64,000 nucleotides of DNA. It comes from Sphaerolaimus hirsutus. Taxonomy: Eukaryota; Nematoda; Chromadorea; Monhysterida; Sphaerolaimidae. The notes under the pieces are model-generated. The model worked only from the letters and a program-made list of their open reading frames with translations, had not been told where the DNA came from and did no database searches. A program made the position numbers and the translations under genes. Within the stretch, counting starts at the first letter, position 1. Every line of letters begins with the position of its first letter. Where the stretch lies: NCBI GenBank assembly GCA_964036195.1, contig OZ038456.1, positions 22,607,792 to 22,671,791 of the forward strand, in the 5' to 3' direction. Of the stretch, positions 12,588 to 62,992 are shown piece after piece.

Positions 12588-15500
12588 GTTTGTTTTGTTT
12601 TTTTGGGGTTTTTGTTTGGTTGGAATTGGTGTGTGATCTTTGTGAAATGTGAAAAATGCGGCTTGTCAAAATTTATGGGTCACAAACTTCAGTATTCTAT
12701 TTAAAAATCTTTTTGCACTCATTCTCTAAATTCTCTTGTTTATCTAGGTACATTCTCTATACACTCATTTCGAGTGGGGTATTTCGAGAGGGGCATTTTT
12801 TCATATGCTCGCTCAGATGTGGGGGTACTCCGAGTCCGAGGTGGTCTACTTTTCCGTAAGTTCGCTCAGATCTGGCGGTATTTCGAGGAGGGACGGTATA
12901 TTTCGGGGGGGGGGGGGTATTTCGAGGGGGGAGGGGGTATTTCGAGGGGGCGGGGTATTTCGCGGGTGCGGTGTATTTCGAGGAAATACACTACCTATTT
13001 ATATTGAAATCTGAGAACTTTTTTGAACGCCAACCGCAGACAATCTCTGCGACGCCAGAGCAGCATCAGTATCCAAGACAGCAGACGTGAAAGTGTCGTT
13101 TCCGCGGCACAAACGAGCGCCGCGCAGCCCCTGCGAAAAGCGACCGCAGCATTTGACCCCCCATTGGGCGATTTTATCGATAAGGACAATTTGTTCAGCA
13201 ATAGCGGCACTGAGCAGGGCTATTTTATCGATGTCAATGTTTCTGGCAAGATTTATCGACTGCGGAGTGGTCGGTTTTGGGTGGATCGACTTCCTTCAAC
13301 AAACTTTTGTATTATTTATTGAGTGCTTGCGGCTGCGGGTAACATGACACCCTGACCAGATCCTATGAGATGCCCTCTAAAATATCAAATGTAATGTAAA
13401 GTGTCAAGTCATAGCAAATGCATGCTAAATGTCAAATTTCATTCAAATTGTCAAGTCATGTAAAATGGCCTGCCCTGTCAAATCAAATTTCATTTTTCTT
13501 ACTGGACGTGTGACATTTTTCATGATATTTTACATGACTTTTGACAATTTGCATGACATCTTCAATTTACAGCGCACTTTACTCCACTTTTGACACTTTT
13601 AATTTGCATGATATTTGACATTTACCATTTAACAGAACGTTTTACCTGACTTTTTACATGTTGGATGGCATTTGAAATTCTACAGGGGACGTTACATGAC
13701 GTTTGACACATTGCATGGCATAACATAGTTTACAGGGCATTTTACATTACTGTTGACACTTCACATGGCATTTGACAGTTTACAGGGTAGTTTACATGAC
13801 TTTTGACCCTTGTCATGATATTTGCCGTATACGGGGGATTTTACATGACTTTTTACACTTTGCATGACATATGACATTTTACAGGGCATTTTAAAGGGCT
13901 TGGGAGTGGCACCTAGATACACAGTTTGCGTTAAACTGACATGGCATTACTCGCAGACAACTTTGGCAATCATCCAAAAGACGAACTTCTTCCCAGACTA
14001 TTCCAAATGAATTCACCATCCGAACTAGAGAATATTTCAAATAAAACTGTCAACTCATATTACATTAACGCCGACCCGGCAGTTTTCGAATGCGTTTTGA
14101 CATATTATCGCACCGGAATTTTGCACAAACCGTCAACTGGATTTTGCAATAGAAGAATGGAACACGAATTGGATACGTGGGGATTGGAAATGATTTTGGT
14201 AGCGGAATGCTGCAAGTTTGTTTGACATTTTCTCGTGACTGGGTAATTTACAGCGAAATCTACCATATCATATCACAACTTGTAAAGTGTTCAGTCAAGT
14301 GTTAAATGTCATGTGAAGTGTCATGTTTACAAATTTGTACATTTTCAGTAAAAAAGATATTTAATATTGATTGTCATTTTACATGGCATTTGACACTTGA
14401 CTTTACACTTTACAGGGTGCCGGACCATCCCCAGATGAATACCGTATTTCCTCGAAATACCCCCCGGGGGGTGATTGTTTCATAGTGGTCCCGAGAGGGG
14501 GGGGGGTGAAACGAGGGGGGGGGGGTATTTCGAGGGGGGGGGTTATTATTTCGCCAGAAATTTTTTCAAATCCTAGTACAAAATCGTCGTTTGTGATGTA
14601 CACTGGGGTAGAAAAATTCATCAATAACTGACATGTATAGACTCCTGTAGACTAATAGTAGTACGTAGATGGTAAAAACACTGTTCTAACGTGATTACGA
14701 CATTGTTTTAACGTGTGTTCTGCACTACGCAGAACACAAACTGCAGTATTTGTCATGTACGTTCTCTTTACACTCAATCTGGGGGGGTATTTCGAGGGGG
14801 GGTGATTGTTTCATAGTGGTTTCGAGAGGGGGGAAGGGGTCAAACGAGGGGGGGGGGTATTTCGAGAAAATACGGTAACATATAAATACTTATTAATAAT
14901 AAATATTAACATTTGCATCTTCCAGCGAAAATTCTTCCAACTACAAACGGAGCAATGCTTTCATAGAGCCGACAGAATTATCGCTGCTTCAAAACCACAT
15001 TGATCGAGCTGAAGATGATTTCGAAGGTCCACCCGATCACGATCAGGTGCCGATTCCGCAAGTGACCAAGTGACATGAAAAGTGCTAAGTGGCACATTAA
15101 CTTAAACTTTAAAGTGACAAAGATTTTTTTTAATTTGACTGTCACCTAAACATATCGGTAGCAAAAAAATTCTAAAAGGTTTTTGACGTTTACCTCACCA
15201 TAAGTTTACTTGTCACTTCTCTTACCATTCACAACTTAACCCATCACTTAGCACTTTTCCTGTCACTTATCCACTTGAGGAATTGGTCCCAGGTTGTACG
15301 CGACCACTTCAAAAACGCGTACTGTTTGGTTCCATTGAGACGGAAAATTTACGATGTCACGGAAGGACATACTAGCAGATGGTCGAAAATATATTCCATG
15401 TTCTCAATGTCGGTGGTTGTGATTTCAATTATAGCCATGATTTTTGGATCGCTGCAAAGCATGCAGGTAAAAAGTACTTTTTCGGAGTTTTATACCGATA

Positions 15501-18500
15501 TTTAAAATGGAGCAGGGGGCACTCCCAGTGCCTGTAAAGTGTAAAATACCCTGTAAAATGTCATGTGCCATGTAAAAGACCTTGTAAAATGTCATGTGTC
15601 ATGTAAAAGAACCTGTAAAGTGTCAAATGTCATGTAAAAAACCCGTTAAATTTCATGTGAATCCAAACCATGTTATATTGTATCCCAATCTTATGTTTTT
15701 GTATCCAAATCATATGTCAAAAAGTAAGACTTAAGAGTAAGAAAAGTGATACAGAAACATAAGATTTGGATACGATAAAATAAGATTTGGATGCACACTT
15801 TACAGGGTCTTTCACATGACAATTGGCACTTTACAGAGTATTTTACATGACACATTACAGGGTCTTTTACAATTGTGTGGATTTCAAGTGTCTATAAAAA
15901 GTTTCGAGAAAGTGCTTCCTCTCATTTGATTTTTGCAGAGAAAACCCCCGTGAAAAAGTGGTCTCCCCCAGAACACGGCACATTCTCCAATCTCCAAAAA
16001 AACCCCGCAGACCTACGACGAATCGTCGAAACAATACCGCTCAGTGGAACCCATAAACATGATCGAAGTTCTATGCGTCGTGTGGTTCACTTTCGAGCTT
16101 GTACTCCGTTTTGCAGTGGAGCCGGCCAGGTGCCAGTCCCAGACCCTGTAAAACGCCATGAAAAATGTCAAATGCCATGCAAAGTGTCAAAAGTCATGTA
16201 AAATGCCCGGTAAAATGGCAACTCGGTTGCCATTTTACCGGGCATTTTACATGACTTTTGACACTTTGCATGACATTTGACATTTTAAAGGGCATTTCAC
16301 AGGGTTTGAGACTGCCCCCAGGTGTTGGTTTTTGCGCCAACCGCTCAACATTATCGACGCGCTGTCGATTTTGCCCTTCCACTTGGAGCTGGTCGTCGAC
16401 ATTCTGGTGCCAGTTTCTCGAGTGGTCAAGTGACGAGTAAGTGGTAAGTGGAGAGTAAAGTGATAAGTGGCATGTAAAGTGACAGGTTCACTTCGAACTG
16501 ACAAGTATTTTGTTTAACCCTTTACATGACTCTAATTAGAGTTGCATTTAGTGTTCAAATGAGACTGCTTTTATTTTTTTCACAGTGAAAATTTTTAGGG
16601 GTGGGGGGTATCGACGGAAGGCGTATTTCGAGGGGGTATTATTTCGCCAGAATTTTATCGAACTGTCCCTTTTTGAACCCTATCAAATGTCACTTTACTT
16701 CATACTCACTTACCACTTACCACTTGCCTCGTCACTTGTCCACTGGTGAAAGTGGCCCCTGGGCATCGCGGCAGATCTGCAAGACATCCAGGGGGTGCTG
16801 TTGGTGCTGCGCGTGCTCAGGATACTCAGAGTGGCCAGACTTTTTAAATTGGCCAGACACAGGTGAGATGGGAGATTGGGGACTGGGGTGTCGGAATTTG
16901 GATTTGGGGGTCTCCAATGGGGGTGCCCAACAAATGTAGGGGGACAAAGCGCTGTTGAAATGTATGGTGCCAGATATAAATATTTCCAACTGTTGAGATC
17001 CCACAATTCCACCTGAATGGAGCCATAAGAGAGTCAAGCCACAAAAAAGTTGTCCAAATCAGTCAAGTTTTTCAAACAACAGACTATGCATTCGCACATA
17101 CTTATGTCTTATGCGCCAGAGCACCAATGTGATACTTATGCACCACTTTCACGAAAAAATATTTAAAAAAGAAAAAGGCGGATTCGAGTACAGGCAACAT
17201 ATTATGTTTTGTGCCCGAAAATATTTTTTCGTTTTGGTAGAGTTTTCATTTTTTCAACGATGACGTCATGACGGAGTGTTTCATCCAAAAGCATGGATAG
17301 CATGTGGTCCACAGAGTTTTTTAAAATAAAAAAACCCACGCAGCGGAGGACTATCTTCACTGGGCAAAACGCTCAAACGTTCTTGCCGAGAAATCGGCAT
17401 GTTATTTACCTTCGTCGGCACTACCATAGTCCTCTATTCGACGATGATGTATTATTTGGAGAAAGACGAGCCGGGCACCGATTTTACTAGCATTCCGGCC
17501 GGCTTTTGGTGGTGCGTTATTACCATGACTACGGTAGGATATGGTGATATTGTGCCCAGGACTGTGGGTGAGTTGGGGTGGGTTGTGTGGGTACAGTATA
17601 TTTTGGAATAGAACCCCCCCCCCCGCTTGAATAGCCCCCCCCCTAAGGGTGTGTTTACAGCTTGGGAAAAATAAAAGTTGAAAGGTAAATCAAAGAGTCA
17701 CTGAAAAATTTATTATTTCCATTTCTTGAAGGTTTTTTTAAAAGTTCTGTTCAAAACTAAATTTTTATCAAATGTGGGGACAAGTGAATCAGCACCTGAC
17801 TCCAAATTCAATTGGAAATTAAGGCACACGTAAGAGCGAGTAAGGCGCCTCATATTCCGGATAATGGCACCGGGTGCAGTCTCGCACCCTGTAAAGTGAG
17901 AAGTCAAGTGTGAAAAGTCATGTGAAATCATAATAAAATAGAAACGATTTTACCTATAATTGAACTTTTGACATTTTGCATGACATTTGACAAATTTCTA
18001 TGACATTTTACATGCCACTTGACACTTTAATTCATGACACTTTACATAGTGCGGGACTGCCCTCTCTATATCACTTGACTCCTCTCAGGCGGCAAGCTAA
18101 TAGCCACCCTCACTTCCCTATCCGGCGTGGTGGTGCTAGCATTTCCCATCACTTTGATAGTGGAAAATTTCAACGCTACACAACGAGAAGCAGACATGGA
18201 AGCTCAAAAATTGGCCGAAAGACAACAACTCGAAAAGGAAATTGTCGAAATGGCCGGTGACGGATTGAGAAAAGCCACCAGGTGGCAGTCGCAAGCCCTG
18301 TAAAGTGTAAAGTCAAGTGTCAAATGTAAAGTCAAATGCAAAGTGAACTGTCAATTGTTATGCAAAGTTCAGTAATAAAATCTTTTCTTTTTTGTTTTGA
18401 TTGACACTTGACTTTGCATTTGACTTTACATTTGACACTTTACTTTACACTTTACAGGGCTTGGGACTGCCCCCAGGGCGCAGTTGATTGGCGAATTGAA

Positions 18501-18543
18501 ACGGCGAGCGGAGGAGATTAATGAGGATGGGATGAATTTGTGA
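12424..18543 (+). CDS. Voltage-gated K+ channel (Kv) alpha subunit, 11-exon model
   Basis: Tetrameric K+-selective membrane channel subunit. I join exons 12424-12587, 13040-13308, 13957-14215, 14926-15046, 15293-15466, 15972-16129, 16322-16406, 16753-16862, 17344-17567, 18089-18281 and 18477-18543. They total 1824 nt, an unbroken 607-residue frame plus stop. Order: low-complexity N-terminus; T1/BTB tetramerisation domain (about 115-232); S1 (300-325); S2 (357-380, ending FTFELVLRF); S3 (388-408); S4 with Arg at every third position (LRVLRILRVARLFKLARH); S5; pore with TVGYGD at 510-515; S6; short C-terminus. The T1 zinc signature H-X6-C-X20-CC is present, which points to the Shab/Shaw/Shal side rather than Shaker. 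The S6 hinge reads PIT instead of PxP. Several introns are exactly introner elements. The true N-terminus is uncertain (see 11612). Confidence 0.9.
13040..13308 (+). CDS. Kv exon 2: linker and start of T1 domain
   Basis: Starts after CAACCGCAG and ends TTTT|GTATTA (phase 2 in, phase 1 out). Arg/Ser/Ala-rich linker, then the first T1 strand, read as IDVNVSGKIYRL, comparable to the LNVGG..F strand of Kv T1 domains, and DRLPSTNF, comparable to the TL..LP.T. segment. Confidence 0.8.
13309..13956 (+). other. Kv intron 2 with long degenerate family A repeat
   Basis: From about 13350 to 13912 the intron is a run of family A-like units (TTTACATGACTTTTGACACTTTGCATGAC and variants), several times longer than a single introner. 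It ends GGGCTTGGGAGTGGCACCT, a family A end in minus orientation. It looks like an expanded or multiply inserted copy. Confidence 0.6.
13957..14215 (+). CDS. Kv exon 3: main part of T1 domain
   Basis: Acceptor TACTCGCAG; donor CTGCAA|GTTTGT; phase 1 in, phase 2 out. Carries the T1 core (DPAVFECVLTYYRTGILH, like the DP..F..IL.FYRTG.LH of Kv channels) and the zinc-ligand set H..C..CC ending DTWGLEMILVAECC. Confidence 0.9.
14216..14925 (+). other. Kv intron 3 with family A remnant and a MITE
   Basis: Contains a degenerate family A copy (about 14280-14435, ending GGTGCCGGACCATCCCCAG) followed by a TACCGTATTT MITE at 14440-14877. Confidence 0.65.
14440..14877. mobile_element. TACCGTATTT-family MITE (C-rich type)
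   Basis: Ends TACCGTATTTCCTCGAAATA and TATTTCGAGAAAATACGGTA, with poly-G arms and the AACGTGTGTTCTGCACTACG core shared with copies at 3906, 21957 and 41149. Confidence 0.8.
14926..15046 (+). CDS. Kv exon 4: T1-S1 linker
   Basis: Acceptor TCTTCCAG, donor GATCAG|GTGCC, phase 2 in, phase 0 out. Hydrophilic, acidic toward the end (IDRAEDDFEGPPDHDQ), as expected of the cytoplasmic T1-S1 linker. The donor is the first base of a family B introner. Confidence 0.8.
15047..15292 (+). mobile_element. Family B introner that is exactly Kv intron 4
   Basis: Starts GTGCCGATTCCGCAAGTG and ends CACTTGAGGAATTGGTCCCAG, so the two ends are inverted repeats. GT and AG of the intron are the first and last bases of the element. 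The flanking exons join in phase 0. Confidence 0.9.
15293..15466 (+). CDS. Kv exon 5: pre-S1 and S1
   Basis: Fifty-eight codons, phase 0 at both ends. Contains PLRRKIYDVTEGHTSRWSKI, matching the RRKIWDL.E.P..S pre-S1 segment of Kv channels, followed by the hydrophobic S1 (MSVVVISIIAMIFGSL). Donor AGCATGCAG|GTAAAA. Confidence 0.92.
15467..15971 (+). other. Kv intron 5 with composite family A copy
   Basis: Contains family A-type repeats (15515-15870) with a nested palindrome of ATCCAAATCTTAT/ATAAGATTTGGAT. The same composite is present at 45275-45605, so this sub-family transposed after acquiring the insert. Confidence 0.65.
15972..16129 (+). CDS. Kv exon 6: S1-S2 loop and S2
   Basis: Acceptor TCTCCCCCAG (an upstream CAG would meet a TGA in this frame), donor GGCCAG|GTGCC, phase 0 in, 2 out. 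Loop then S2: INMIEVLCVVWFTFELVLRF, close to the I...C..WFT.E...RF of Kv channels. Confidence 0.92.
16130..16321 (+). mobile_element. Family A introner that is exactly Kv intron 6
   Basis: Starts GTGCCAGTCCCAGACCCTG and ends GGTTTGAGACTGCCCCCAG. The interior is one long hairpin around GGCAACTCGGTTGCC. Exons join as AG|G TGT TGG, restoring R-C-W-F between S2 and S3, so the intron is removed exactly at the element ends. Confidence 0.95.
16322..16406 (+). CDS. Kv exon 7: S3
   Basis: Phase 2 in, phase 0 out. Encodes CWFLRQPLNIIDALSILPFH, the classical W.F....NIID..AI.P motif at the S2-S3 turn and S3 of Kv channels. Flanked on both sides by introner-derived introns. Confidence 0.95.
16407..16752 (+). 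mobile_element. Eroded family B introner forming Kv intron 7
   Basis: Starts GTGCCAGTTTCTCGAGTGG; the family B 3' end reads GTCCACTGGTGAAAGTGGCCCCTG, where the usual terminal CAG is CTG. The only frame-keeping acceptor is GTGAAAG at 16752, eight bases upstream. A fragment of a TACCGTATTT-type repeat (about 16600-16655) lies inside. Confidence 0.75.
16753..16862 (+). CDS. Kv exon 8: S4 voltage sensor
   Basis: Encodes DLQDIQGVLLVLRVLRILRV and on to ARLFKLARH, with Arg/Lys at every third position as in Kv S4. Phase 0 in if the acceptor is at 16752, phase 2 out at CACAG|GTGAG. The first four codons (WPLG) derive from the eroded introner end. Confidence 0.9.
16863..17343 (+). other. Kv intron 8, ordinary intron carrying a MITE
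   Basis: Canonical GTGAGA..CACGCAG intron. It is not an introner. Around 17105-17290 it holds a copy of a MITE also present inverted at 31495-31690. Both copies contain the palindrome TGACGTCA (17261-17268 here). Confidence 0.7.
17344..17567 (+). CDS. Kv exon 9: S4-S5 linker, S5 and pore
   Basis: Phase 2 in, phase 1 out (GTGG|GTGAGT). Reads GGLSSLGKTLKRS (S4-S5 linker), S5 (GMLFTFVGTTIVLYSTMMYY), then FTSIPAGFWW and MTTVGYGD, the K+ selectivity filter. All key pore residues are intact. Confidence 0.96.
17568..18088 (+). other. Kv intron 9 with a family A copy
   Basis: Begins with G/T-rich sequence and contains a family A-like element (about 17874-18064, GTGCAGTCTCGCACCCTG to TAGTGCGGGACTGCC), not at the intron ends. 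The acceptor CCTCTCAG follows 24 bp later. A C-rich MITE remnant lies near 17610-17645. Confidence 0.65.
18089..18281 (+). CDS. Kv exon 10: S6 and proximal C-terminus
   Basis: Phase 1 in, phase 2 out (CACCAG|GTGGC). Encodes GGKLIATLTSLSGVVVLAFP then ITLIVENFN, the S6 gate. It is followed by an Ala/Glu-rich, probably coiled C-terminal stretch (READMEAQKLAERQQLEKEI). PIT replaces the PVP/PIP hinge of conducting Kv subunits. Confidence 0.95.
18282..18476 (+). mobile_element. Family A introner that is exactly Kv intron 10
   Basis: Starts GTGGCAGTCGCAAGCCCTG and ends GGGCTTGGGACTGCCCCCAG. The arms are complementary over nearly their full length (AAAGTCAAGTGTCAAATG / CATTTGACACTTTACTTT). Removal joins CACCAG to GGCGCAG in frame. 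Confidence 0.95.
18477..18543 (+). CDS. Kv exon 11: last residues and stop
   Basis: Twenty-one residues (RAQLIGELKRRAEEINEDGM then NL and TGA). Charged helix continuing the C-terminal coil. No PDZ-binding end is evident. Confidence 0.88.
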
Positions 18544-19910: not shown

Positions 19911-20630
19911 ATTTCTTCGAATTACCCCCGGGGGGTTTATTTTTTCAGAGTGAAAATTTTGAGCGAAAAACGTGAAAAATGCAATAATAACCACCATTTA
20001 TAAGTTTTTACAGCCTTATATAAGGGTGTAGATGGTATAAACAATGTTCTAACGTAACACAGTAAGTGTTTTGAACGGCGGTGCACTTGTACGCACAAAT
20101 GCCTGGTACGCACAAACGCCCGGTACGCACAAAATTGTGCCCGCCACGCACATCTGCCTGATACGAAATAACATTACATTACATTTTGAGCGTGTTTTTC
20201 ACTTCACACTTGTGAGTAAAGTGGAAAAAAGTTGTGTAATGACATTAGTTAACTTTTTGTCACTTCAGATATATTTGAACATCACTTGAAAAAGTGTCAA
20301 GTGAAAAAATGGTGGATAATGGCCATTTTTGACCGTTTTTTTCACTTGACACTTTTTCAAGTGATTTTCAGATATCAGTGAAGTGAAAAAAGCTGTGCAA
20401 TAACATTAGTGACCATCTGTCCAGTACGCAAAGATCATCAGCCATGTAAGTACCGGGCATATGTGCGTGGCGGGCACAATTTTGTGCATACCGGCATTTG
20501 TGCGTTTGCAGGCATTTGCAGGCATTTGTGCGTAGGAGGCCTGGCCCTTTTGAACGTCTGTTATGCATTTTCGGACCACAAATTCATAGTGCCCATTTTG
20601 AGGGGGGTATTTCGAGGAAATACGGTATAA
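19911..20630. mobile_element. TACCGTATTT MITE with a nested 480-bp palindrome
   Basis: Outer element TACCGTATTTCTTCGAATTA to GTATTTCGAGGAAATACGGTA. Inside, about 20068-20547, is a large palindrome whose ends carry GTACGCACAAATGCC-type repeats and whose middle is TTTTTCACTTGACACTTTTTCAAGTGA. A relative of this palindrome is at 33163-33365. Confidence 0.7.
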
Positions 20631-28841: not shown

Positions 28842-29007
28842 GTGCCAGTCCCAGACCCTGGAAAATGTCAAATGTAATGCAAAATGTCAAAATTCATGTA
28901 AAATGCCCTGCAAATGCAACTCGGTTGCCATTTTGCAGGGCATTTTACATGACTTTTGACACTTTGCATGACATTTGACATTTTACAGGGTCTGGGACTG
29001 CCCCCAG
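28842..29007 (+). mobile_element. Family A introner at an older 3' splice site
   Basis: Starts GTGCCAGTCCCAGACCCTG and ends GGTCTGGGACTGCCCCCAG. It is directly preceded by a C/A-rich acceptor-like tract ending CACCCCAG and followed by a GC-rich exon-like stretch. The layout suggests insertion exactly at an existing acceptor. Confidence 0.75.
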
Positions 29008-45274: not shown

Positions 45275-45605
45275 GTGCCACTCCAAGACCCTGTAAAATG
45301 TCATGTGTCATGTAAAAGACCCTGTTAAGTGTCAAATGTCATGAAAAGTCCCGGTTAAGTGACATGTGTATTTAAATCTTATTTTATCCTATCCAAATCT
45401 CATGTTTTTGCATCCAAATGTTACTTTTTGGCATGACGTTTAGATACAAAAACATAAGATTTGGATACGATAAAATAAGATTTGGCTACACATGATACTT
45501 TACAGGGTCTTTTACCTGACATTTGACAGTTTACAGGGTCTATTACATGACACATGACATTTTACAGGGTCTTTTACATTTCACAGTGTCTGGGAGTGCC
45601 CCCAG
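45275..45605 (+). mobile_element. Composite family A element
   Basis: Starts GTGCCACTCCAAGACCCTG and ends GTGTCTGGGAGTGCCCCCAG. Contains the nested ATCCAAATCTTAT palindrome also seen in Kv intron 5 and repeated TTTACAGGGTCTTTTACATG units. No convincing exon on either side. Confidence 0.7.
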
Positions 45606-60206: not shown

Positions 60207-62992
60207 CTGCGATTGGAAGTGTGACATTTCGCATTTCGCACTTGACAAGTTTGTGTGACATTTACAGGGTGCGGTACTTACACCAGTTGACACGTGAACT
60301 GCCGTCAACTGAAAATTACGATGTTGCAACGAGTTTCAATTAACGGGCATGTAGCAGCACTGACCAACGCTTGTCAAAAGTAAAATATACTCGACAGATA
60401 AAACACATTTAAAGTTGACATTTAAAGTACCAACTGTCAACTAAAAAACCTGTCAACTGCCCCACCCCCCTCCCACAAACCAAAAGCACGTGTTCACTGC
60501 GTCCCGGGTGGGCGGGGCATGCGTCAGCGTCCCCCTGCTCACTGTCGTCATCATGCTCGCTCATGTCATCCTCGTTTAGCTGGTCGAGGCCGCGCAGATT
60601 TGTGCTGCCTGATTGCATTGCCGCGGTGCGGCGCTCGGAAAGTTCGTGTCTGGTGTTTGGTTTGGTAGTGGTGAGTTCAGCTTTTTTGGTTTGATTGACG
60701 ATGCGGTGTGACTCATTGTTTACAGGTGAAAATTGATATTTAAAGTGGTATGTAAAGTGATATGTAAAGGTGAACAAGTGTTATGTAAAGTGGCAAAAAG
60801 TTGCAAAAAGCTCTACTAGTCCAAATGGCTTTCCCAGACTCTGTAAAATGCCATGTCAAATGCCAGCAAAAAGTCAAAACTTTTGACTCAAATGCCATGT
60901 AAACTGATCTGCCAAATGTCAAGTTTCATTTTATTTTTTTGCCCGGTTGTTTGGCATTTTACATTTTATGACTTTTGACACTTTGCATGACATTTGACAT
61001 GTCCAGGGCATTTTACATGACTCTTGAAACTTTGCATGACACTTAACATGTTACAGGATCCAGGAGTGAACCCCAACCCACCTATCATGCGTCCTATCCT
61101 GACCACTTTCGAGCGATCTCTCCACCTCCAATCTGGCGCCAATGATTTGCGCGTCGACCAACGTGAAAAGGGTCGAGCTCATGCAGCTGCCCGCGTCTAC
61201 ATTCTGGCTGGGGCAGCAATTCCGCAGGGGGATAAGTGAGGAGAAGTGTTAAGTGTTAAGTGGTGTTTTGAGTGTGAGTCAAGTGAGAAGGAGACTTTCA
61301 AAGTGAAGATGCTTGTCACTTTTCAGTTTGGTTGCCACTTCACCCGTGGTGAGAACAGTTTCCATTTATATATTTCGTTTCTTACTTATAAGTTCACTTG
61401 ACTTGACACTTACAACTTCAGTTGTCACTTAGCACTTTCCAACACTTGTCCACTTGCGGAGTTGGCACCTGGTGGACGGGTGCAGCGCGTCCGTAGCTTC
61501 TGAAATAATGTAAAGTATTTACTCGAATAATTCCCTCGGGAAATCAGTTTCGTACGAATTTTTTCGGGGGGGGGGCTATTCAAGGGGGCAGGGGAGTTTT
61601 CAAGGGGGGGGAATTTTTTTTCGTCAAAATTTTCAAGCATGTTTCTATCAATTCATTTGATGAAATATGCTTTAAAACAAAATAAAATGTATTTTTTTTC
61701 GTTCAAATTCAACGACATTTACAGATAAGTTTTATGTAATTTTTTGGATAATATGATAATAAATATATCTCAGAAAATCTCTAAAAGTAGAAAAATCTAA
61801 TTAGATCTCCCTGGAAAATCCTATAATCCCTGGAAAAGTATAAATAAATACAGAAATCTAATATTCTTCATATTTTCGATATTTCTAAATAAAAATCTCC
61901 CAGAGAATAAACACACACCTTGATCAGTCAAAAATCTCCCCACCATTTGTTCATAAAGCAGAGGCGCGCGCCGGCGCATTTCAAAATCGGAAAAATATTT
62001 CCTTTCTGCGATGAGCTTTTTGAGCGCTTCAAAACGTCGATTTTTCTGCTGCTTTTTAGAATTCAATCGCATTTGGTGGCGCGATGCAGATATGCAGGCG
62101 GGAAGAATGGAATCTAGATTTTGGCACCCTGCCAAACTGTGAGATAGTCGCTGGAGATCGTCTGGGTGGTAAAATTATTTTCAAATATAGATTAGGTACC
62201 TAACTGTGTTATTAGACGATATGATTAACTGAGATTTCGACATGACAAAAAATTTCTTGGCAAACGTATCGATATTTAGATCCGAAATTTTTGGCAATTT
62301 TTTTCAAAAAATACAAATGGACAATTCTGCATAACTCCAAATTCGATACAAAACTTCACCCACACCAAATTTCATTGGAAATCGACTTACCCGGTTCCAT
62401 ATGCAGATGATATTTCGTAATGAATTTTGTAGCATTTTGGTGAAGCTGTTCGCGCAGCAATGCGGCACGTTCATCCACCTGCAACCGAAACAAAAATGGA
62501 AAAATGGACATGGATAAAGACCCATCCGGAGTTCCAGGAAATTGTAAAAAGCCTGATAAAATTGTCAAATGTCATGTGCAATTTTTATACGTGTTTTACC
62601 GGGCATTTTATATTTTACGTTATATATCAAATTTGACAAACTTGTGGCCCATTTCAGAGTTTATAAGGTGCGGGACAGGCCTCTGGCGTCAATTTCAACC
62701 CGTCAAATGATAACTTTCCGAGAAGTTTCCAATCTCAGGAATAAAGCTTTCATATTACCGACAAAGCCATTGCTGTAACCCGAATTTGAAACTTAAAAAC
62801 CATTCGCAAAACCTCTAACAAAAATGATAAAAGGCACAAAATTAAACGAACATTCAAATCGGGTTCCCCTCTTTGCTGCGACAAAACACAAACGTCCATA
62901 TCGGCCGCCAATTTCTCAATGATCCATTCGGTATCAGATTTATGCTTGTTTTCTTCTGATGAATTTAATGTGCCAGTGGCTACCGCTTCCAT
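60027..62992 (-). CDS. CCDC97: CCDC97-like protein (DUF2052), complete 7-exon model
   Basis: Homologue of animal CCDC97, a coiled-coil protein with a conserved C-terminal domain (DUF2052). Exons on the - strand: 62992-62852, 62478-62391, 62161-61919, 61499-61469, 61207-61082, 60649-60490, 60206-60027. They total 969 nt, an unbroken frame of 322 residues plus TGA, close to the roughly 340 of the human protein. Diagnostic segments: NRRFEALKKLIAERKYFSDF followed by EMRRRAPLLYEQMVGRFLTD (family RRY..L..LI..G.YFS...MR.R.PLLYEQ..GQ.L), an acidic linker (NEDDMSEHDDDSEQGDADA), and LRSEFVRTMHERFLLGLDQE with an acidic C-terminus. Start is the ATG at 62992. Function in the family is poorly defined; a nuclear role is inferred only. 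Confidence 0.92.
60490..60649 (-). CDS. CCDC97: CCDC97 exon 6 (acidic linker)
   Basis: Acceptor AAACCAAACACCAG chosen because it alone gives phase 2 with a good tract. Donor GAACAC|GTGCTT, phase 0 out. Encodes HELSERRTAAMQSGSTNLRG followed by the acidic DDMSEHDDDSEQGDAD stretch. Confidence 0.8.
60650..61081 (-). other. CCDC97 intron 5 with a large family A copy
   Basis: Begins GTGGGTTGGGG, then a family A-like element (GTTCACTCCTGGATCCTG to ACAGAGTCTGGGAAAGCC, about 60825-61070), then a B-like GTGATATGTAAAG run up to a C/A-rich acceptor tract ending ACACCAG. Confidence 0.65.
61082..61207 (-). CDS. CCDC97: CCDC97 exon 5
   Basis: Starts right after the introner acceptor. Encodes MSSTLFTLVDAQIIGARLEV and on to SGQDRTHD, aligning with the LSNLLL..YEE..L..RL segment of CCDC97. 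Donor GATAG|GTGGGT, phase 2 in and out. Confidence 0.85.
61208..61468 (-). mobile_element. Family B introner that is exactly CCDC97 intron 4
   Basis: Minus orientation GTGCCAACTCCGCAAGTGG to CCCTGCGGAATTGCTGCCCCAG. Inverted ends, with GT and AG at the terminal bases. Flanking exons join as ACC AG|C CAG. Confidence 0.92.
61469..61499 (-). CDS. CCDC97: CCDC97 exon 4, a 31-nt mini-exon
   Basis: Between acceptor TTATTTCAG and the GTGCC donor of a family B introner. It encodes EATDALHPST plus split codons. It is required to keep frame between exon 3 (phase 1) and exon 5 (phase 2). Confidence 0.8.
61919..62161 (-). CDS. CCDC97: CCDC97 exon 3 (core motif)
   Basis: Acceptor TTTTACCACCCAG, donor GATCAAG|GTGTGT, phase 1 in and 1 out. 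Starts DDLQRLSHSLAG and contains the most conserved family block (YFSDFEMRRRAPLLYEQMVG). Confidence 0.93.
62391..62478 (-). CDS. CCDC97: CCDC97 exon 2
   Basis: Acceptor TTTCGGTTGCAG, donor GAACCGG|GTAAGT. Encodes VDERAALLREQLHQNATKFI then TKYHLHMEP, similar to the L..R...DP..FL.RFG..L.P segment of the family. Phase 0 in, 1 out. Confidence 0.88.
62852..62992 (-). CDS. CCDC97: CCDC97 exon 1
   Basis: ATG (MEAVATGTLNSSEENKHKSD) to GAT TTG AAT|GTTCGT, 47 codons, phase 0. The upstream 63000-63060 region is an ACGTT-rich repeat with no further coding sign, which supports this start. Confidence 0.8.

Follow-up and report, generated by a model that had tools for sequence, protein, structure and literature searches.

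Inverted-repeat elements as probable introners in a Kv2-like channel gene and elsewhere in the genome of Sphaerolaimus hirsutus, with candidate TG acceptors at CTG targets

A Kv2-like channel gene and its inverted-repeat introns

The window analyzed here, a 64,000-nucleotide stretch of the 348-Mb genome of Sphaerolaimus hirsutus (G000:C9:22607792-22671791), carries on its plus strand a Kv2-like voltage-gated K+ channel gene that extends from the T1/BTB domain to the C-terminus (13008..18543) and was delimited using Pfam matches, similarity to KCNB1 and open reading frames. The spliced product, whose exon joints outside the junctions discussed below were set by eye, matched Pfam Ion_trans (E 5.8e-48) and BTB_2 (E 3.2e-11) as well as KCNB1 chain 8sd3_A (phmmer, E 1e-70); a preliminary description of the window had already named a K+ channel gene, and these matches place it as Kv2-like. 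Three of its introns coincide with repeat elements which, judged from their sequence, are very probably introners, each landing of which would have made a new intron.

Introner 1 (15047..15292, plus strand, phase 0) was assigned to repeat family A and reads GTGCC...GGTCC followed by CAG. Introners 2 (16130..16321) and 4 (18282..18476), both of family B, on the plus strand and in phase 2, read GTGCC...GCCCC and GTGGC...GCCCC, respectively, again followed by CAG. All three begin with GTG(C/G)C, end with CCAG and have inverted-repeat termini, and in each case the triplet CAG lies immediately 5' of the intron and recurs as its final three bases (15044-15046 and 15290-15292; 16127-16129 and 16319-16321; 18279-18281 and 18474-18476). 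The coordinates given for these introns in the preliminary description, and the inverted-repeat ends at their junctions, proved exact; the refinement added here is that each intron equals one palindromic miniature inverted-repeat transposable element (MITE) plus a single copy of a 3-bp target-site duplication (TSD), CAG. The reading frame is kept, as had been proposed, when the elements are excised (DQ/VVRD for introner 1, EPA-R/C-WFLRQ for introner 2 and KAT-R/A-QL for introner 4, with slashes at the junctions), and the phmmer alignment to KCNB1 is gapless over the 16130-16321 junction. Genome copies of the first 76 nt of introner 4 were found elsewhere at 97% and lower.

A fourth element in the gene, element 3 of family A (16407..16761, plus strand), is flanked by CTG (TSD copies at 16404-16406 and 16759-16761) and is without an AG at its end. 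Coding sequence stands on both sides (DIL/GIAADLQ), and we propose it as a GT-TG intron; its last 90 nt hold a single AG, at +9, counting bases upstream of the element end. The remaining Kv introns are ordinary and are not elements, with at least one holding an element that stops short of the junction (end near 13910). For Kv intron 1, inspection by eye favored GT-AG over AG-AC ends, and the AG-AC reading was dropped. A separate repeat with runs of G and TATTTCGAGGGG-like motifs was also observed at window positions 14460-14870, 16610-16640 and 19915-19960, including within introns.

The occurrence of the same elements elsewhere in the window on both strands, also claimed in the preliminary description, was borne out. 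On the minus strand, a family A introner in a CCDC97-like gene (61208..61468, phase 2; CCACCAG/GTGCCAACTCC...GCTGCCCCAG/CCAG) leaves the frame open over the junction, and the joined protein, whose later exon joints were guessed, matched Pfam CCD97-like_C (E 1.2e-38). On the plus strand, one family B copy has a CAG/CAG duplication without clear coding flanks (28842..29007), and another has a 5' CTG and a 3' CAG without coding flanks (45275..45605). Scans of the window for Rfam families and for tRNAs, the latter run with the bacterial code, returned no matches.

Junctions in further genes could be anchored by homology. In OSCP1 (C1:3591380-3593450, minus strand), a CAG element separates RLR from AQN and a CTG element separates YDL from MTM; the joined protein matched Pfam Oscp1 (E 2.6e-52) with residues 17-167 on profile positions 1-151 (151 on 151), a match of equal length that is gapless over both the CAG and the CTG junctions. 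In a polysaccharide deacetylase, the match likewise runs through the site of a CAG element with protein and profile of equal length (E 7.4e-05, at the family cut-off). Three elements stand at junctions in a leucine-rich repeat (LRR)-like gene at locus L015, one of them with CTG before and CAG after; the LRR appearance comes from reading the protein, and no Pfam match was obtained for this gene. At the same locus (~5198-4762, minus strand), an introner was observed that has another element of its own family nested inside, the two lying within one intron.

We read the elements as introners because the repeats end where the inferred splice junctions lie, removal leaves the frame intact, a 3-bp TSD is present, and copies occur both in other genes and in non-coding DNA; the introner reading of the preliminary description is thus strengthened by the copies in OSCP1, the deacetylase and the LRR-like gene. 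Were these MITEs that had landed in older introns, the match between element ends and splice sites being only apparent, this would account for copies that sit within larger introns and stop short of a junction, for example the copy that ends near 13910. Such an origin is nevertheless most improbable, since the TSD is part of the exon, and the Kv, CCDC97, OSCP1, deacetylase and LRR-like genes, though unrelated, all show exact junctions.

Element ends, target-site duplications and copy number

Exact matches in the genome to the GT end of one family numbered 1118 with CAG and 1054 with CTG, and those to the GG end 1681 with a 3' CAG and 1246 with a 3' CTG; reversed control patterns gave 0 matches genome-wide. 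One end of the other family had 254 exact matches. TSDs were surveyed across 314 kb, made up of the window together with 20 loci of ten kb and 40 short ones picked because CAG or CTG flanked the GT end, with the omission of L001-L008, which overlap other loci, and of copies without a recognized partner end. Both ends were present in 85 rows, and 64 of these paired a GT end with a GG end. The triplets flanking these 64 GT-first/GG-last copies were CAG/CAG in 20, CTG/CTG in 16, CTG/CAG in 6, CAG/CTG in 0 and other combinations in 22; the corresponding counts for the window and ten-kb loci only (n=29) were 9, 5, 2, 0 and 13. Identical copies of CWG (where W is A or T) were found in 36/64, with 6 more differing at W alone, and at loci not picked on the triplet in 14/29, with a W-only difference in 2/29. 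Given the matching CAG/CAG and CTG/CTG flanks, the duplication is CWG, 3 bp in length.

The preliminary description had distinguished two MITE-like families. Their MITE structure and two end types were upheld, but families A and B, having common ends and a common TSD, are better seen as subfamilies. By class, they would be non-autonomous cut-and-paste MITEs carrying long inverted repeats, and the group they most resemble is NuwaI, within the PIF/Harbinger (PHIS) superfamily. The NuwaI group is defined by 5'-CWG-3' TSDs, has terminal inverted repeats (TIRs) and is found mainly in animals (PMC4482050); the CWG TSD and TIRs are held in common with the elements described here, and the passages of that paper drawn on here do not describe NuwaI elements as introns. 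At least 163 matches to PF13359 (DDE_Tnp_4) were detected in the genome. Many of the Harbinger-type transposase matches (~633 bases, e.g. C47:89409-90041) were observed to have the same count of in-frame TGA codons (4), which probably reflects an intron inside the gene.

CAG made up a larger share of the 3' TSD copies (57.4%) than of the 5' copies (51.5%) genome-wide (Fisher 2.5e-5). This excess is as expected if selection for AG favored T-to-A changes, and subfamily differences could add to it.

Copies in coding-like DNA and the acceptors at CTG targets

Copies were sampled on C1 by taking the first 20 CAG and first 20 CTG new hits, followed by the next 4 and 6; 5/50 anchored loci (L030, L034, L042, L062 and L075) had no recognizable 3' end and were dropped. 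A copy was called coding-like when it looked coding on both sides with a score of at least 9, using codon scores trained on 1026 codons, and 0.86% of 3972 random junctions were coding-like under the same threshold. Flanks were coding-like in 19/45 sampled copies, split by target into 13/25 for CTG and 6/20 for CAG (Fisher 0.22); coding-like flanks were thus no rarer at CTG than at CAG targets. The sense strand scored higher in 14 of these 19, including 11 of the 13 CTG copies; the exceptions were L032, L040 and L041 (near ties, GC-rich), L068 and L070. The near-identical duplicates L040 (C1:3746500) and L041 (C1:3950600), entered as two loci, represent one gene fragment with its introner occurring twice on C1 in opposite orientations.

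Among the 14 sense coding-like cases, the exact join was the top of three frames in 12, with L064 (rearranged 3' end, CAG one base earlier) and L077 (small margin) as exceptions. At L070 (C1:7324370-7325520), a clear antisense copy, the GG end is now GC, so that the coding strand reads CAG/GC...CAG/ and is consistent with a GC-AG intron. Pfam gave no family for most coding-like loci, and their coding status therefore rests on codon scores and open frames.

Nine coding-like CTG/CTG copies were intact, in sense orientation and frame-keeping (L051, L052, L054, L055, L056, L060, L069, L072 and L073), one of them being in OSCP1. An AG lies at +19 in all nine and at +31 in six, both positions being frame-shifting, and in four of the copies (L052, L054, L072 and L073) the last 90 nt hold no AG in frame. 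Of the 11 sense cases at CTG targets, 10 scored higher with exact removal than with retention from +19, the exception again being L064. On this basis we are inclined, by a modest preference, to the view that CTG-flanked copies in genes use a TG acceptor.

In an alternative that we consider possible but less probable, the CAG copies are ordinary GT-AG introners and the genic CTG copies are either recent damaging insertions or spliced at a cryptic AG, with the TG acceptor unused. The AG at +19 in each of the nine CTG copies is of the UUUACAG type, in-frame AGs are available in five of the nine, in L061 (at 164) and in Kv element 3 (16407-16761), and the genome-wide enrichment of 3' CAG over 3' CTG is in keeping with an unused TG, as is the need of human TG acceptors for a nearby AG (PMC2374985, as far as the sections drawn on here report). 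Damaging insertions, however, would not be expected to be coding-like in 13/25 CTG copies vs 6/20 CAG copies, nor to lie in sense in 11/13. The frame is kept by exact removal and broken by use of +19, the last 90 nt of L052, L054, L072 and L073 offer no acceptor AG in frame, and the OSCP1 product with its CTG element removed fits the Oscp1 family without a gap.

Several observations weigh against the interpretation that we favor, with its GT-TG introns and bulk intron gain. With respect to the TG acceptor, an alternative acceptor AAAG nine bases upstream of the end of element 3 would add WPL in frame, and in-frame AGs occur in the last 90 nt of L056 (+9), L055 (+45), L051 (+51), L069 (+69) and L060 (+72); TG is therefore not forced in these five copies or in Kv element 3. 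Human TG 3' splice sites, reported for 36 genes, are described in the portion of PMC2374985 considered here solely as alternative sites no more than 28 nt away from an AG. The sense bias is not significant by itself (14/19, p=0.064), the strand is ambiguous at GC-rich loci, L068 scores 18.9 in antisense vs 14.0 in sense, and the margins of the exact join over shifted joins are small at L052, L054, L055 and L060. The C1 sample contained CTG/CTG pairs in 22 copies, CAG/CAG in 12, CTG/CAG in 8 and CAG/CTG in 3, and the imbalance between the mismatched pairs (8 vs 3) is not significant. A cognate transposase was not found; one PF13359 locus was read (L079), by eye without element ends. Lastly, introners were found in 0/12 introns of myosin genes, a set of long conserved genes in which 12 gaps of ~190-390 bases were hand-picked from 108 matches; a scan of the myosin introns for the ends of both families gave a single weak, chance-like match (L092). 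Introners may thus be a minority of introns.

The proposal in the preliminary description that introns were gained in bulk is supported by the 19/45 coding-like copies but finds no counterpart in the myosin introns. A naive extrapolation to the 2172 exact ends, based on the first 8 Mb of one chromosome, would give ~700 copies from the 14/45 that are sense coding-like and ~400 from the nine intact CTG copies. The balance of the evidence tilts towards hundreds of introns seeded by a CWG-target transposon, in which the duplicated host target would write the 3' dinucleotide, AG at CAG and TG at CTG. GT-TG introns would then form a bulk, constitutive class, and it seems, with a similarly slight edge, that some are turning AG through a T-to-A change in the 3' copy, as the CTG/CAG pairs may record.

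Proposed mechanism and comparison with known systems

Upon insertion in sense, the element's own GT would serve as the 5' splice site straight after the first CAG or CTG, and the CWG duplicate at the far end would supply the 3' splice site, as AG for a CAG target and as TG for a CTG target. Excision of the element together with one TSD copy would give back the pre-insertion mRNA. The predicted RNA folds are hairpins that take in almost the whole element (z -8.5, -20.8 and -17.9 for introners 1, 2 and 4, and z -16.6 for the OSCP1 CTG element) with the donor and acceptor at the base and, in family B, internal GUAAA and UUUACAG paired in the stem. This pairing may mask the internal sites, in which case the spliceosome would act on the GT left exposed at the hairpin base and, beside it, the CWG copy.

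Near-perfect hairpins with splice sites at their base, and the seeming tolerance of both AG and TG, also suit the idea that the hairpin and not the splice dinucleotides mainly guides excision, as has been proposed for Amoebophrya introners. We regard this as unlikely. The hairpin is symmetrical, yet coding copies lean GT-first (14/19, p=0.064), and the clear antisense copy L070 carries GC, which makes the donor dinucleotide seem to matter; purely structural excision is less likely because the orientation and the L070 change point to donor recognition.

Introners have been described in algae, dinoflagellates, fungi and copepods (Gozashti et al. 2022, PMC9860276). According to the parts of that study consulted here, they resemble the present elements in being multicopy and MITE-like, with TIRs and TSDs and with ends at splice junctions, and the combination of an element's own 5' site with a co-opted 3' site, as proposed here, is one of the described modes (Fig. 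2C). The present elements differ in that a 3-bp CWG TSD would yield AG or TG according to the target; those parts of PMC9860276 mention rare GC and GA donors, and TG acceptors were not noticed there. Amoebophrya introners (PMC7789003) share hairpin-forming inverted repeats, direct repeats of 3-5 nt and non-canonical ends with the elements described here, but in the sections of that report considered they have highly variable splice sites and no family-specific inverted repeats, in contrast to the single end architecture and GT donor found here.

A mitochondrial contig (G000:C762; 14,754 bases) contains a COX1 gene that fits invertebrate code 5, and a repeated stretch that encodes repeated peptides lies nearby. 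Judged from conserved positions, COX1 reads best with AGR as serine and AUA as methionine, which argues against tunicates and cnidarians. The tunicate Fritillaria borealis (PMC13326754) offers a parallel: in the portions of that paper used here, a triplet often precedes the 5' site and nearly always ends the intron, carrying the 3' dinucleotide. There the triplet is YAY and gives AC or AT, with AG-AC and AG-AT the commonest combinations and 95% of introns non-canonical, whereas GT donors and a CWG triplet are seen here. Introns of the Fritillaria type (AG-AC/AG-AT with YAY) were not found, the ends here being GT...CWG.

Human TG sites (PMC2374985, in the part drawn on here) are handled by the U2 spliceosome; those proposed here would differ in being present in bulk and transposon-made, with frame-breaking AGs nearby. 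Neither CWG introners nor bulk GT-TG introns of animals appeared in the titles and abstracts of the open-access literature searched. Introners as such are known, then, and the CWG-templated AG and TG acceptors look like the new component.

The elements would be a clear animal case, structurally exact, of introns made by transposons. As one element has landed on both CAG and CTG, the genome offers a natural experiment in which the same intron and donor are paired with different last splice bases, AG or TG. The strictness of the need for a 3' AG, and the origin and evolutionary repair of non-canonical splice sites, would thereby become directly testable in one genome.

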